Shown here: piece after piece, positions 786 to 43,443 of the stretch | Position numbering within the stretch: position 1 is the stretch's first letter | How the letters are laid out: every line of letters begins with the position of its first letter | NCBI GenBank assembly: GCA_025455885.1 | Contig: JALOLR010000018.1 | Coordinates: 1-54,971, forward strand | Source of the DNA: Acidimicrobiales bacterium | GTDB taxonomy: Bacteria > Actinomycetota > Acidimicrobiia > Acidimicrobiales > Acidimicrobilacustridaceae | Direction: 5' to 3' | Length of the DNA stretch: 54,971 nt | The notes under the pieces: model-generated | The model's database searches: none | What the model was told of the DNA's origin: nothing | What the model saw: the letters and a program-made list of their open reading frames with translations, nothing else | Position numbers and translations under genes: made by a program

Positions 786-1571
786 TCAGCGGGCGCGGGC
801 GTCGGTGACGAGGTCGGTGAGGGTGGCGCCGGGGCGGCCGACGAGGGTGCGCACGCCGTCGGCCTCGAGGCGGGCGGCGGTGGCGGCGGCGTCGTCGGCG
901 ACCTCGGGCACGGTGACGGTCAGCACGACGAGGTCGACGGGGTGCTCGGCGCCGAAGCGCACGAGCTCGTCGGGGGGCATGTCGGCGCCGAGGTGGTGGA
1001 CGCGCCAGTTGTCCTCGCGCAGGGCGGCGGCGGCCATGGAGGTGGGCAGGGTGTGGGTGTCGCCGGAGAGGGCGGCGACGACGGCGGTGCCGCGCCGGCG
1101 GCCGCGGGGGGTGGGGTGCTGCTCGCCGAGGATGCGGTCGACGATCGCCGCGGCGCGGTGCTCGACCCAGATGGGCAGGCGGCCGTCGTGCCACTCGGTG
1201 CCGATGTGGCGCAGCCCGGGGGCGATGACCTGTTGGATGGCGTCGGTGAGCGGCACGCCGTCGCGCACGAGCCCGTCGACGAGGGAGCGGGCGGTGCGCT
1301 CGTCGCCGTCGAGCAGGGCGGTCTGCATGCGGGCGGCGAGGTCGTCGAAGCCGCGGCGGGGGCGGCGTCGGGGTGGGGGAGCGGGCCGGGTGCGCTCGTC
1401 GGCGAGGCGGGCCACGTCGGCGGGGTCGAGGAGGTAGCGGCCGCCGACCCGACGGGCCGGCAGCGTGCCGGCGCGAACCCACTTGTAGGCGGTCTGGTAG
1501 TGGACGCCGAGCTGCTCGGCGGCGGTGGCCAGGTCGACGGAGTCGCTGTCGCTATCGCTGTCGCCGTCCAC
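786..1571 (-). CDS. CarH-like B12-binding transcriptional regulator
   Basis: A 261-residue cytoplasmic DNA-binding regulator. Residues 13-57 form an excisionase/MerR-type helix-turn-helix (LATAAEQLGVHYQTAYKWVR). After a basic Pro/Arg linker, residues 74-155 are a helical cap with a Trp127-x9-Glu137-His138 motif, the signature of adenosylcobalamin photoreceptors of the CarH type. Residues 162-255 are the B12-binding Rossmann domain, with Asp171-x-His173 as the candidate cobalt ligand; the Gly of the usual DxHxxG is Pro176. In CarH, dark AdoCbl-bound tetramers repress and light releases them; a role in light control of the divergent rhodopsin gene is inference. The N-terminus has an odd Asp-Ser run. 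The GTG start lies 8 bases after a TAGCGT box, suggesting a leaderless mRNA. Confidence 0.85.
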   Translation of the reverse strand: MDGDSDSDSDSVDLATAAEQLGVHYQTAYKWVRAGTLPARRVGGRYLLDPADVARLADERTRPAPPPRRRPRRGFDDLAARMQTALLDGDERTARSLVDGLVRDGVPLTDAIQQVIAPGLRHIGTEWHDGRLPIWVEHRAAAIVDRILGEQHPTPRGRRRGTAVVAALSGDTHTLPTSMAAAALREDNWRVHHLGADMPPDELVRFGAEHPVDLVVLTVTVPEVADDAAATAARLEADGVRTLVGRPGATLTDLVTDARAR

Positions 1572-1631: not shown

Positions 1632-1678
1632 AATGCTGAAACGGTGTGGCAACCCGAAATGCTCCCAAGGAGATGCTC

Positions 1679-2476
1679 ATGCCACTCGAACTCAGCCAGG
1701 GTCAGTACGACCTGGTCTACAACGCCTTCTCGTTCACCATCGCGGCGATGGGTGCATCGCTGCTGCTGTTCCTCCTGATGCGCAACCAGGTCCACGTGAC
1801 CTACCGGATCGCCGTCACGATCTCCACGCTCGTGGTGGCCATCGCCCTGTACCACTACCTGCGGATCTTCAACTCGTGGGCCGACGCCTTCACGTTCACC
1901 GACGGCCGGTTCGTCCAGGACGGCCCGCCGTTCAACGAGGGCTACCGCTACGTCGACTGGCTCCTCACGGTGCCGCTGCTGCTGGCGGAGCTGGTGCTCG
2001 TGCTGAAGCTGGCCAAGGACACGACCCGCAGCCTCATCATCCGCCTCACGGTGGCGGCGGTGCTGATGATCGGCCTCGGCTACCCGGGCGAGATCGCGGC
2101 GGCGGATTCGGCCACCCGCACGGTGTTCGGGATCCTGTCGACGATCCCGTTCCTCTATATCCTCTACGTGCTGTTCGTGGAGCTCGGTCGGTCGCTCGAC
2201 CGCCAGAGCCCGCGGGTGCGCAAGCTGGTGGACGCCCTGCGCTACATCGTGCTCATCACCTGGGGTGTGTACCCGCTGGCCTACATCGCCCCGTCGGTGA
2301 TCAGCGACGAGGCCACCGCCGAGGTGGTGCGCCAGGTCGGCTACTCCGTCGCCGACGTGCTGGCCAAGCCGCTGTTCGGGATCCTCATCCTGTCCATCGC
2401 CCTGACGAAGTCCCGTGCCGACGACGAGCTGGTGGCCGAAGGGCTGCCCCGTGCGTCCGAGGTCGACAGGGTCTGA
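1679..2476 (+). CDS. Xanthorhodopsin-clade light-driven proton pump
   Basis: A 265-residue seven-helix retinal protein of the inner membrane. The Schiff-base lysine is Lys230 with Asp226 four residues before it (GYSVADVLAK). Helix C reads RYVDWLLTVPLLLAELV, giving the outward-pump triad Asp93, Thr97, Glu104 (DTE, proteorhodopsin/xanthorhodopsin type); Leu101 at the tuning position suggests green absorption. His59 lies 34 residues before Asp93, the xanthorhodopsin spacing with a long BC loop. Gly151 in FGILSTIPF occupies the place of the xanthorhodopsin glycine that opens the retinal pocket to a carotenoid antenna (Trp138 in bacteriorhodopsin). The ATG at 1679 is chosen because AAGGAG at 1667-1672 sits six bases upstream; the frame is open to a GTG at 1646. 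No retinal or carotenoid synthesis gene is in the window. Confidence 0.95.
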   Translation: MPLELSQGQYDLVYNAFSFTIAAMGASLLLFLLMRNQVHVTYRIAVTISTLVVAIALYHYLRIFNSWADAFTFTDGRFVQDGPPFNEGYRYVDWLLTVPLLLAELVLVLKLAKDTTRSLIIRLTVAAVLMIGLGYPGEIAAADSATRTVFGILSTIPFLYILYVLFVELGRSLDRQSPRVRKLVDALRYIVLITWGVYPLAYIAPSVISDEATAEVVRQVGYSVADVLAKPLFGILILSIALTKSRADDELVAEGLPRASEVDRV

Positions 2477-3206: not shown

Positions 3207-3578
3207 TCAGGGGCGGGTCCGACGGACCCGGATGGGGCCCTTGGCGGTGGAGGGGTCGACGACCTTGCCGCCCTGGGTGATCTGGACCTCGCCGGCGGCG
3301 ACGAGGCGGCGGGCGGCGGAGCGGGCCGGTTCCATGAGGTCGTGCCACCCGTCGGGGTCGACGGCGCGGGCGGCCTCGCTGGGGCAGATGGTGGCGGTGG
3401 CCGCGCGCTGGTCGAGCAGCGTGCGGATGGCCTCTTCGAGGGCGGTGTCCACGGGCCGGACCCGCCGCCGCCGGCACCGCTCGGAGCAGTACCGACGCTC
3501 GTCCCAGTCCGCCGCCCACGCCTTGCGCCAGGTCATCGTCCGCCCACACGAGGCGCACGTCTTGGGCTCGGGGGTCAT
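3207..3578 (-). CDS. DUF2256-DUF3253 domain protein
   Basis: A 123-residue protein. Residues 6-40 carry a compact Cys pattern, Cys8-x2-Cys11 and Cys31-x3-Cys35, around TMTWRKAWAADWDERRYC, matching the DUF2256 zinc-ribbon-like module. Residues 45-115 match DUF3253, a small winged-helix-like domain (ALEEAIRTLLDQRAATATIC, DLMEPARSAARRLVAAGEVQ). No catalytic function is known to me. Its ATG overlaps the stop of the upstream photolyase-like gene in an ATGA, so the two are probably translationally coupled. DUF2256 genes are often neighbours of cryptochrome/photolyase genes in other bacteria, which supports a shared role. Confidence 0.8.
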   Translation of the reverse strand: MTPEPKTCASCGRTMTWRKAWAADWDERRYCSERCRRRRVRPVDTALEEAIRTLLDQRAATATICPSEAARAVDPDGWHDLMEPARSAARRLVAAGEVQITQGGKVVDPSTAKGPIRVRRTRP

Positions 3579-4843
3579 GACGGGAGCCGGATCTGGTGGC
3601 GCCAGGCGCTGAAGGAGGCCAGCGACCCGGAGGGCGGGCGGACCAGCCACGGCCACGGGTGGGTCTCGACGACGTCCAGTCGTCGTGCCCGGGTGCGGAA
3701 GCCCGGCACGGGGGCGTGGGTGACGGCGAGGCGACGTCCGGCGAGCACGGCGACGGGGTCGCCGACGGCGACGGTCAGGTCGCGGGTGGTGCCGAGCTCG
3801 GCGAGGGTCTCGACGAGGAACACCAGCCGCTTGGACGACAGGCGCAGCCGGGCCAGCAGCGGCTCGTCGAACACGAAGACGACCGGGAGGGCGGGGTGGG
3901 CGGCGAGGGCGGGGTCGTCGTTCCCCAGCGATTCGGCGGTGAGCCACACCGTGTCGGCGACTCCGGTGGTCTCGACGGTGTCGGGACCGGCGGTGAACCC
4001 GGGGCGGGGGTCGGCACGCAGGGCGGCGGGGCGGTCGACGGCCCGGTGGGCCGGGGGATCGGGCCACTCCTGGATCGGGCAGCGGTCACGGTGCGGGCAC
4101 TGCCCGCAGAGCCCGGGGGCCCGCCGCTCGACCTGGCTGCGGGAGAACCCGTAGGGCTTCGACGAGCCGATGCCGGTCGTCCACTGCCAGCCGAGGCGGT
4201 TGGCGGCGCGTGACCCGTCGAGCAGGTGGGCGAAGAAGCGGTCCTCGCCGTCGCGCCACGGTGCGCCGTGGCGGACCGACCAGTGGCTGGCCATCCACAT
4301 GCGGGTCTGGTTGACCAGCCAGCCCCGGGTGTGGAGCTCGTCCATCACCATGGCCACGCAGGCCAGGTCGGTGTCCCACGGGTCGGTGCTCTGGCGTGCC
4401 GCCGTCTCGGTCGACGCGCCGGGTGCGGGCGGGGTGAGGTCGCGGCGCAATGCCCGGCCGGTGCGGGGGCCGAGGCGGGCGTAGAGGTGGCGGCCGTACT
4501 CCTGCCAGAGCAGCTCGTCGCGGAACTTGGCGACGTCTCGGGCCGGACCGCCGGCCACGTGGTCCCACACGTCGCGCAGGCCGAGGAGGCCGTGGCGGAT
4601 GTAGGGGGAGAGCTGCGACGCGCCCCGGGCGGAGGCGGGGGCGACCTGGTTGCGTCGTGCCGCGTACCCGGTGACGTCGAACGCGGCGAGGGCGGCGTCG
4701 GCGGCGGCCTGCCCGCCCCGGAACCCGACCGCACCCCGCACGTCGTCGCACACGAGGTGGCGGAGATGGCGCGCGACGAACGGCACCGCGGTGTCCTCAC
4801 CGGTGGCGGGGGCCGGCACACCCGTCGAGATGTCCGCGGCCAT
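3575..4843 (-). CDS. Cryptochrome/photolyase-like FAD protein with permuted domain order
   Basis: A 422-residue protein. Residues 20-245 are the helical FAD-binding domain of the photolyase/cryptochrome family: SQLSPYIRHG at 77-84, DELLWQEYGRHLY at 109-121, WLVNQTRMWMASHW at 175-188 and NRLGWQWTTGIG at 215-226. A Cys246-x2-Cys249-x5-Cys255 cluster follows. Residues 296-400 look like the alpha/beta photolyase domain (VWLTAESLGNDDPAL, VVFVFDEPLLARL, KRLVFLVETLAEL, AVGDPVAVL), which in canonical photolyases lies at the N-terminus. The order is therefore reversed, as in a circular permutation. It may be a repair enzyme, a photoreceptor or neither. The ATG at 4843 is the first in frame after unlike coding sequence; no clear Shine-Dalgarno precedes it. 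Confidence 0.85.
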   Translation of the reverse strand: MAADISTGVPAPATGEDTAVPFVARHLRHLVCDDVRGAVGFRGGQAAADAALAAFDVTGYAARRNQVAPASARGASQLSPYIRHGLLGLRDVWDHVAGGPARDVAKFRDELLWQEYGRHLYARLGPRTGRALRRDLTPPAPGASTETAARQSTDPWDTDLACVAMVMDELHTRGWLVNQTRMWMASHWSVRHGAPWRDGEDRFFAHLLDGSRAANRLGWQWTTGIGSSKPYGFSRSQVERRAPGLCGQCPHRDRCPIQEWPDPPAHRAVDRPAALRADPRPGFTAGPDTVETTGVADTVWLTAESLGNDDPALAAHPALPVVFVFDEPLLARLRLSSKRLVFLVETLAELGTTRDLTVAVGDPVAVLAGRRLAVTHAPVPGFRTRARRLDVVETHPWPWLVRPPSGSLASFSAWRHQIRLPS

Positions 4844-42048: not shown

Positions 42049-43443
42049 ATGGGTGACGACCTCGGACTGGTGTGGTTCCGGCGCGACCTGCGCCTCGACG
42101 ACAACCCCGCCTGGGCGGCGGCCACCGCGACCCACGCCCGGGTGGTCGCGCTGCACGTGCTCGACCCCCGGCTGCTCGACCGGGCCGGGACGCTGCGCCG
42201 CCGTCGTTTCCTGCACGACCTGCTCGCCCTCGACGACCGGCTCCGCGAGCTGGGTGGCTCGCTCCGGTTCACGACCGGTGACCCCGCCGAGGTGGTCCCC
42301 CGCACTGCGGCCGAACTCGGCGCCGTCACCGTGCACGCCAACGCCGACACCACCCCGTTCGCGGCTCGCCGCGACGCCGGCGCGACCGCGGCGCTGCGCA
42401 GCGCCGGTGTGGACGGCGACTGGTGGTGGGGCACGCTCGTCCACGAACCCGGATCCGTGCGCACCCGGGCCGGCTCGTTGTCCCAGGTCTTCACCCCCTT
42501 CCACCGGGTCTGGGAGGCCACCGCCCGGTCGCCCTGGCCGGCATCGGGCGCGGCGGAGGTGGTCGACGTCCCGGACGAGGCCCGCCCCGACCCTGGCGGC
42601 GCCTACCCGCTCGTCGGGGGAGAGGAGGGCGCGGCGAGGACGCCGGGCGAGCACGGGGCCCTGGCCCGACTCGAGTGGTTCCTCGAACGGGTCGACGACT
42701 ACCGGGACCTCCGCGACCGCCCCGACCGGGTGGGCAGCTCCCAGCTCTCGCCCGACCTGCGCTTCGGCACGCTCTCGCCCCGCACCGTCATCGACGTCGT
42801 GGGCACCGCGACGCCCGGGCGGGCCGCCCTCGTGCGCCAGCTGGCCTGGCGGGACTGGTACGCCCACACGCTGTCCGAGCGGCCGGAGATGGTCGACGAG
42901 CCGCTCAAGACCGCCTTCGCCCGGCTGGCCTGGCGCCACGACCCCGAGGGGCTGGCGGCGTGGCAGGAGGGGCGCACCGGGGTGCCCATGGTCGACGCCG
43001 GCATGCGCCAGCTCCGGGGGTCGGGCTGGGTGCACAACCGGGTGCGGATGATCGTGGGGTCGTTCCTCACCAAGAACCTGCTGATCGACTGGCGACTCGG
43101 CGAACGGTGGTTCCGCCACCACCTCGTCGACGGCGACGTGGCCCAGAACGTCGGGAACTGGCAGTGGGTCGCCGGCACGGGCCCCGATGCGTCGCCCTTC
43201 CACCGGGTGTTCAACCCGGTGCTCCAGGGTCGCAAGTTCGACCCCGACGGCGGCTACGTCCGCCGGTGGGTGCCGGAGCTGGCCGGGTTGCCGGCCGGGG
43301 TCGTCCATGCGCCCTGGGAGGCGGGACCCCTGGAGCTGGCCGCCGCGGGCGTCGAGCTCGGCTCGACGTACCCCCACCCGATCGTCGACCTGCGGGCCAG
43401 TCGCGAGCGGGCGCTGGCCGCCTACGAGGCGGTCCGGGCCTGA
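42049..43443 (+). CDS. phrB: Deoxyribodipyrimidine photolyase, canonical domain order
   Basis: A 464-residue light-dependent DNA repair enzyme for cyclobutane pyrimidine dimers. The N-terminal alpha/beta domain begins LGLVWFRRDLRLDDNPAW; the C-terminal FAD domain has SSQLSPDLRFGTLSPRTV, RQLAWRDWYAHTL, RTGVPMVDAGMRQLRGSGWV, NRVRMIVGSFLTKNLLIDW, DVAQNVGNWQWVAGTGPDAS (flavin and electron-transfer Trp) and FNPVLQGRKFDPDGGYVRRW. This is a full class I enzyme, unlike the reordered relative at 3575-4843. No SOS box is seen upstream. Confidence 0.96.
   Translation: MGDDLGLVWFRRDLRLDDNPAWAAATATHARVVALHVLDPRLLDRAGTLRRRRFLHDLLALDDRLRELGGSLRFTTGDPAEVVPRTAAELGAVTVHANADTTPFAARRDAGATAALRSAGVDGDWWWGTLVHEPGSVRTRAGSLSQVFTPFHRVWEATARSPWPASGAAEVVDVPDEARPDPGGAYPLVGGEEGAARTPGEHGALARLEWFLERVDDYRDLRDRPDRVGSSQLSPDLRFGTLSPRTVIDVVGTATPGRAALVRQLAWRDWYAHTLSERPEMVDEPLKTAFARLAWRHDPEGLAAWQEGRTGVPMVDAGMRQLRGSGWVHNRVRMIVGSFLTKNLLIDWRLGERWFRHHLVDGDVAQNVGNWQWVAGTGPDASPFHRVFNPVLQGRKFDPDGGYVRRWVPELAGLPAGVVHAPWEAGPLELAAAGVELGSTYPHPIVDLRASRERALAAYEAVRA

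Follow-up and report, generated by a model that had tools for sequence, protein, structure and literature searches.

Does a gene on a contig of an actinobacterial assembly encode a DNA photolyase whose two domains stand in the reverse of the usual order, and if so, what would such an enzyme repair? The window analyzed here is a 54,971-nt stretch of contig JALOLR010000018.1 from an Acidimicrobiales bacterium (GCA_025455885.1; all positions are window positions in forward-strand numbering), and the gene in question, at 3575-4843, is an intact open reading frame (ORF). The original prediction placed a flavin adenine dinucleotide (FAD)-binding helical domain at residues 20-245 of its product and a photolyase alpha/beta domain at residues 296-400, opposite to a canonical photolyase encoded at 42049 in the same window, and this layout is borne out by Pfam, AlphaFold2 and hhalign. 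With a probability of about 0.78, we read the product as a reverse-order iron-sulfur (Fe-S) DNA photolyase of the group comprising short photolyase-like proteins (SPLs) and cyanobacterial Phr6. Photolyases permuted in this way test the extent to which the antenna domain and the catalytic domain rely on their order along the chain.

Pfam assigns residues 108-229 of the permuted protein to FAD_binding_7 (PF03441; E 3.9e-12, above the family cut-off), and phmmer aligns residues 37-231 with photolyases in the PDB; these chains cover the FAD part only, leaving the C-terminal part unmatched. An AlphaFold2 model of the full-length protein, built from a 75-row alignment, is confident (predicted local distance difference test, pLDDT, 94.3; predicted template modeling score, pTM, 0.93), with the helical domain at residues ~16-241 and the alpha/beta domain at ~296-400, the latter with strands at 298-301, 321-326, 356-361, 372-375 and 391-395. 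Some relative is encoded in 294 stretches of GTDB genomes, canonical photolyases possibly among them; we used the best 80 of the 294, and counts out of 81 below refer to these plus the window protein. Both domains are present in 80/80 relatives and the alignment spans both. The relatives come mostly from Actinomycetota, with a few placed in other phyla by the titles of metagenome-assembled genomes. The order FAD domain then alpha/beta domain, the reverse of that in canonical photolyases, is real, a point on which we have almost no doubt, and the reversed arrangement occurs in many actinobacteria.

Profile comparison and predicted fold identify the C-terminal part as a photolyase alpha/beta domain. 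Four lines agree on this: profile, swapped pieces, fold and Deinococcus relatives. An alignment of the C-terminal part (81 rows) matched 31 canonical alpha/beta domains in hhalign at E 9e-7 over 71 columns, compared with E 0.003 for the best of 200 column shuffles and 0.51 for the reversal. The same part gave E 0.15 against the canonical FAD half, and the N-terminal part gave E 4.8e-22 against the FAD half and 0.05 against the alpha/beta half. Each half matches its own canonical counterpart and not the other, and the permuted photolyase proposed at the outset is right at the domain level by sequence profile and fold. The full-length profile also matched canonical photolyase ORFs as two pieces in swapped order, one ORF in each of four of the 296 genomes of a phylum sample, with C-domain pieces at E 1.4e-6 (G396), 9.9e-6 (G308), 1.2e-5 (G343) and 8.6e-4 (G406); it matched the remaining canonical ORFs of the sample by the FAD piece only.

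Structural comparison points the same way. VIA-align on the full model covered residues 1-270 only, aligning them with residues 180-472 of 1owl (Z 13.9, root-mean-square deviation, rmsd, 3.0) and ranking the FeS photolyase PhrB first (5kcm_A, Z 16.4); for this reason the C-terminal domain was folded and searched separately. Its 138 residues, folded alone in AlphaFold2, gave pLDDT 90.5 and pTM 0.84. In Foldseek, ranks 1-20 for this domain are photolyases and one cryptochrome (best E 1.6e-3, probability 1.00), with PPAT and universal stress proteins below the photolyases. All 50 rows shown by VIA-align belong to the photolyase/cryptochrome family, the best being 1dnp_A (Z 10.2, rmsd 3.8, 124 aligned); the matched chain ranges begin at residues 1-7, several stopping by 132-172 and others having their last aligned residue at ~260-417. 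In Deinococcus the domain is near enough to the Pfam model to be picked up, though below cut-off: in AJ005, PF03441 lies at 102-218 and is followed by PF00875 at 300-395 (E 7.2e-4), whereas in QL22 the PF00875 match (E 2.3e-4) falls in a gene of its own.

Several observations weigh against the reading as a whole, and the first concern this C-terminal half. Pfam found no family on it (133-residue fragment) at E values up to 10, the DNA_photolyase model missing the window protein; the hhalign match is confined to 71 columns of the alpha/beta domain; Foldseek returned no match for the C-terminal domain at E <= 0.001; and the Deinococcus PF00875 scores are all below cut-off. The VIA-align Z of 10.2 is only moderately above the 7-8 that models lacking a clear match attain at best. 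In the fold list of the full model, moreover, a mitoribosomal chain of no relation stands at Z 14.0, a score that helical domains can reach. Alpha/beta folds are often alike, and the part might be an unrelated Rossmann-like domain that merely resembles the photolyase domain. We consider this extremely improbable, given a profile match far past that of 200 shuffles, canonical ORFs matched in swapped pieces, two fold lists topped by photolyases above PPAT and universal stress proteins, and PF00875 matches, if below cut-off, in two Deinococcus relatives.

The identification as an Fe-S protein draws on four cysteines, Cys162, Cys246, Cys249 and Cys255, that are invariant in 81/81 proteins. A Cys-x2-Cys-x5-Cys cluster noted earlier at the domain junction is present there as Cys246/Cys249/Cys255; its location stands, but instead of a separate junction feature it comprises three of four cysteines of the FeS-photolyase type, Cys162 having been overlooked. 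The host genome encodes, elsewhere, its own canonical FeS-BCP (497 aa, PF04244), in which the first cysteine lies in ‘MAC’ ahead of the lesion helix and the remaining cysteines in KPY...CxxC...CPF, and the window protein aligns with both. Three FeS-BCPs show a comparable KPY...CxxC...CPF loop, and the strict loop pattern fits 76/81 members of the permuted family. A comparable cysteine loop is found in the Deinococcus proteins, and a Ruegeria protein is without its cysteines. The spacing of the four residues is 84-3-6 in the window protein versus 85-3-6 in Phr4, whose Fe-S cysteines are given as C169, C254, C257 and C263 in the cited part of its description (PMC9426592). On this conservation, the window protein very probably holds an Fe-S cluster. 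We predict that a [4Fe-4S] cluster on Cys162, Cys246, Cys249 and Cys255 would fix the loop leading out of the FAD domain, with a role probably in stability and substrate binding by analogy with an FeS-BCP for which both are reported (PMC9178010, in the part cited).

The lesion site resembles that of class I photolyases. Residues E283, W286, N349, M353 and W392 of the A. nidulans photolyase, which contact the cyclobutane pyrimidine dimer (CPD), correspond in the phmmer alignment to Glu110, Trp113, Asn178, Met182 and Trp221, identical in 81/81 proteins. A stricter text pattern for the lesion helix, demanding more residues, fits 65/81. Three FeS-BCPs have His and Leu (H-x3-L) at the Asn/Met positions where the permuted family has N-x3-M in 81/81, and the histidine associated with (6-4) photoproducts is absent from the lesion helix of all 81 permuted proteins. 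Because the class I lesion-site residues are invariant and the 6-4 histidine is absent, CPD repair is favored, and we think it likely, on this residue pattern, that the enzyme acts on CPDs rather than on 6-4 photoproducts. Among the 13 FAD-contact positions of Haney et al., six are identical in 81/81 (Y228, S244, N349, D380, A385 and N386), and S241, L243 and position 346, which is printed as T by Haney et al. and is W in the alignment, have the same residue in 70-80/81. At the other four, W280 is replaced by Phe/Tyr, T240 by Ala/Ser, R287 by Gln and D382 by Ser. W390 and W367 of the canonical Trp triad are kept, identical in 81/81, and Trp156, near the W314 position, is nearly invariant.

In the predicted mechanism, the N-terminal helical domain binds FAD (its occupancy being our inference), a dimer is flipped into the pocket formed by Glu110, Trp113, Asn178, Met182 and Trp221, and reduced, light-excited FAD would donate an electron to the pyrimidine dimer, which splits. 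To the contrary evidence listed above belong here the replacements R287 to Gln and D382 to Ser, each in 81/81, the distal triad Trp W314, which has no conserved aligned residue in the 81 proteins, and a published prediction: Haney et al. assigned Phr4/5 and Phr6 a predicted 6-4 activity, on the basis of the Fe-S cysteines and of effects that appeared under UV-C and not UV-B (PMC9426592).

A permuted Fe-S photolyase repairing 6-4 photoproducts instead of CPDs is the alternative that follows from that prediction. The four cysteines are like those of the 6-4 FeS-BCPs, a Synechococcus phr4 mutant survived UV-C 20-30x more poorly and was hit by UV-C, not UV-B, and in Escherichia coli phr4/phr5 shielded the cells from UV-C but did little under UV-B (PMC9426592). 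The poorer UV-C survival of the mutant and the shielding of E. coli also speak for the DNA photolyase reading in general. Yet the family shares N-x3-M throughout with class I, the three FeS-BCPs having H-x3-L at these positions, and a secondary source calls SPLs CPD enzymes (PMC9649867). A tree of FAD domains (32 rows) clusters 15 permuted proteins (99/100), with Deinococcus and Ruegeria beside them (82/78, weak); by path length the permuted proteins are nearer class I than FeS-BCP, a relation on which topology alone is silent, the midpoint root serving for drawing. We consider 6-4 repair unlikely. A second alternative is a cryptochrome-like blue-light receptor that signals without repairing, with a rhodopsin and a B12-binding regulator as its light-response context. 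Cryptochromes share the fold, and the light-related neighbors at 786-1571 and 1646-2476 occur together with the gene also at locus L013; against this, the lesion-site residues are retained in 81/81, and in the available flanks of the 80 loci, relatives of the B12 regulator and of the rhodopsin turned up at 1/80 and 3/80 loci, respectively. We regard such a receptor as very improbable, and the signaling role raised in the original prediction found no support, the lesion-site residues being of the class I photolyase type.

Compared with described families, the CPD-type Fe-S photolyase favored here is not without precedent. The original prediction named a well-described family with this order as grounds for refutation, and such families exist: for marine Synechococcus/Cyanobium, Haney et al. 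(2022) described photolyases (Phr4/Phr5, Phr6) in which the domain order is reversed and four Fe-S cysteines are present (PMC9426592), and an inverted domain topology is ascribed to NewPHLs or SPLs (PMC13274461). Phr4-5/Phr6, SPL and NewPHL were described in 2020-2022. According to the published description, Phr4/5/Phr6 resemble the window protein in having the FAD domain first, the photolyase domain last and four Fe-S cysteines at near-equal spacing, and differ from it in being cyanobacterial, often encoded by two ORFs and predicted to act on 6-4 lesions. SPLs (Xu et al. 2021) are presented as enzymes that act on CPDs and resemble the photolyases of class I/III, with an Fe-S SPL named as a possible ancestor (PMC9649867). 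SPLs are described as being without an N-terminal alpha/beta domain, whereas the relatives of the window protein have one, C-terminal. A Rhodococcus fascians member of the SPLs has reportedly been tested, and some SPLs are said to carry four cysteines.

NewPHL/Phr7 (Emmerich et al. 2020) likewise shares the inverted topology, as far as the cited description goes, and Phr7 is there described as lacking the Fe-S cysteines (PMC9426592), whereas the window family keeps all four in 81/81. The FAD domain of Ruegeria TM1040, a protein assumed rather than shown to be of the NewPHL type, matches the family profile at E 1.1e-21; its C-terminal part gives E 0.21 against the window alpha/beta domain in a comparison of sequence only, and its candidacy as the same domain is without sequence support. 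FeS-BCPs (PhrB/CryB; PF04244) have four cysteines at aligned places and a comparable loop but differ in their canonical order, N-terminal PF04244 and His at the lesion helix; Pfam found no PF04244 match in the window protein at E up to 10. Class I enzymes (that of the window; PDB 1owl, 1iqr, 1dnp) share the lesion-site residues and supply the top PDB matches to the FAD domain by sequence, but in them the alpha/beta domain precedes the FAD domain. Fe-S cysteines are absent from the two class I rows aligned, and the segment after their FAD-site Trps is missing from the permuted protein.

The window protein thus shows the tested features of the Fe-S reverse-order group, namely an N-terminal FAD domain, a C-terminal alpha/beta domain and four cysteines. 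It departs from Phr7/NewPHL (no cysteines), FeS-BCP (PF04244) and class I (PF00875 then PF03441). By these sequence characters it matches the Fe-S-bearing Phr6/SPL group as described, and its reverse order is not new. What remains of interest is CPD versus 6-4 repair, the retained alpha/beta domain and a link to DUF2256 described below. The residue pattern favors CPD repair, and an alpha/beta domain at the other end of the chain bears on the ancestor argument.

We predict that an antenna chromophore, perhaps 8-hydroxydeazaflavin (8-HDF, or FO), is probably still bound by the alpha/beta domain in its C-terminal position. Arg51 of the A. nidulans photolyase is crucial for 8-HDF according to the part of the source cited (PMC9178010). 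Arg51 and Phe35 correspond to Arg339 and Phe323, both invariant in 81/81, although the mapping comes from a 5.1-bit segment, a further point on the contrary side. The host genome has a gene for a CofH-type FO synthase (458 bits; cut-off, 374), so that a biosynthetic gene for FO would be available. On this sequence evidence an 8-HDF antenna is plausible, at about even odds. Table 1 gives the coordinates.

Table 1. Positions of the permuted photolyase gene, its predicted functional elements and two further genes in the window
Feature	Positions	Strand	Basis
Permuted FeS photolyase (SPL/Phr6-type) gene	3575..4843	-	Intact ORF, 422 aa + stop
FAD-binding helical domain, model residues ~16-241	4121..4798	-	PF03441, PDB alignments, hhalign
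Cys162 codon, predicted first Fe-S ligand	4358..4360	-	Invariant 81/81; aligns with ‘MAC’ cysteine of FeS-BCP
Cys246-x2-Cys249-x5-Cys255, three further predicted Fe-S ligands	4079..4108	-	CxxCx5C in 81/81
Photolyase alpha/beta domain, C-terminal, residues ~298-395	3659..3952	-	hhalign, fold searches, Deinococcus PF00875 matches below cut-off
Codon for Arg339, which aligns with Arg51 of A. nidulans (8-HDF salt-bridge residue)	3827..3829	-	Weak alignment; invariant 81/81
DUF2256-DUF3253 protein gene	3207..3578	-	PF10013 E 1.6e-14, PF11625 E 2.9e-30
Canonical class I photolyase, for comparison only, separate from the permuted gene	42049..43443	+	PF00875 7-165, then PF03441 262-460

The two domains are not always fused. 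On a plasmid of Deinococcus sp. QL22 (L152 2396-3687), two genes overlapping by 4 bases encode the FAD domain (257 aa) and, separately, the alpha/beta domain (173 aa), and the alpha/beta protein, annotated as a hypothetical protein, matches the window domain with 32% identity (BLASTP E 9e-13; hhalign 4.3e-14). Four plasmid records matched, all from Deinococcus, with a fused gene in three and two genes in QL22; the QL22 split may be an assembly frameshift. A similar split, phr4/phr5, is described for marine Synechococcus (PMC9426592, in the part cited).

The distribution counts that follow are lower bounds, and diverged FAD-only forms may escape: the profile derives from full-length proteins, and in each genome only the best 6 or 12 first-look candidates were scored. 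Within the class to which the window belongs, 149 sampled genomes yielded 17 permuted proteins at full length, and pieces came from 3 further genomes: G192 (2-261 at the end of one contig and 245-405 on a second), G085 (229-403) and G169 (138-404, plus a separate 31-position match of 33.8 bits on the same contig). The phylum sample of 296 genomes has a permuted photolyase in 24, and 151 genomes of family f77 have 15 permuted proteins, one of them (G574) in two pieces, 8-86 and 160-404. No FAD-only relatives, lacking the C-terminal domain, were seen in the three genome samples: the FAD matches there are either permuted (whole or in pieces) or canonical-type at <=93 bits, and the score gap between these two groups is occupied by the pieces alone. 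Viral contigs gave 29 pattern matches, none confirmed as a relative, and eight phage records match the FAD part only, with at most 38% covered. The idea that a small-genome genus (g66) depends on the permuted enzyme alone was rejected, a second FAD_binding_7 protein being present in 7/7.

The photolyase stop overlaps the start of the DUF2256-DUF3253 gene by 4 bases (ATGA). A DUF2256-like gene is present in 26/80 loci, adjoining on the same strand in 22/80 (upstream in 13, downstream in 9). In the 296-genome sample, DUF2256 (over cut-off) occurs in 17/24 genomes with a permuted photolyase versus 16/272 without, and PF04244, the FeS-BCP family, in 22/24 versus 22/272; the sampled genomes are related by descent, and Fisher values for these co-occurrences are not probabilities. 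The gene adjoins the permuted gene in 5/17 genomes with both and lies apart in 12/17, which weakens a close link. DUF2256 was rejected as a strict partner, 7/24 permuted-photolyase genomes being without it. Around 17 other DUF2256 genes, 16 of the ~7-kb regions are without the three photolyase types searched (within ~3.5 kb), and the remaining one, L178, has an FeS-BCP gene ~0.6 kb from DUF2256 on the opposite strand. Ten of the 33 DUF2256 genomes are without either photolyase type, all 10 in family f65. At four loci of that family (L171, L172, L173 and L184), the thresholds applied reveal neither Fe-S photolyase type, be it close to the DUF2256 gene or anywhere in the genome.

Genes for the two Fe-S photolyase types themselves can adjoin. 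The permuted and FeS-BCP genes overlap by 4 bases in one genome (G281; L158 1063-3878) and are adjacent in the opposite order in another (G335; L159 658-3634), and at L160 DUF2256 lies directly ahead of FeS-BCP. In the collection of papers searched, none was listed with both DUF2256 and photolyase, and two contain DUF2256. Possibly new are the retention of the alpha/beta domain in the relatives and the linkage of the gene with DUF2256 and, for two genomes, with genes of FeS photolyases. Tentatively, and at somewhat less than even odds, the actinobacterial Fe-S SPLs could be, instead of primitive photolyases without an alpha/beta domain, permuted CPD photolyases with a functional C-terminal 8-HDF antenna domain, working in an Fe-S photolyase module with a DUF2256 zinc-finger-like protein and a 6-4 FeS photolyase, sometimes in one operon. 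If this were true, one argument for SPLs as ancestral domain-poor photolyases would fall and DUF2256 would gain a function; the link makes DUF2256 a testable partner.

Two light-related genes also lie near the photolyase gene. The gene at 786-1571 (-) encodes HTH_17 and two B12-binding domains, and we presume that its product resembles a B12-dependent light regulator of the CarH/LitR type. The gene at 1646-2476 (+) encodes a microbial rhodopsin (PF01036, E 1.6e-42). The B12 regulator, rhodopsin, DUF2256 and photolyase genes are found together again at L013.

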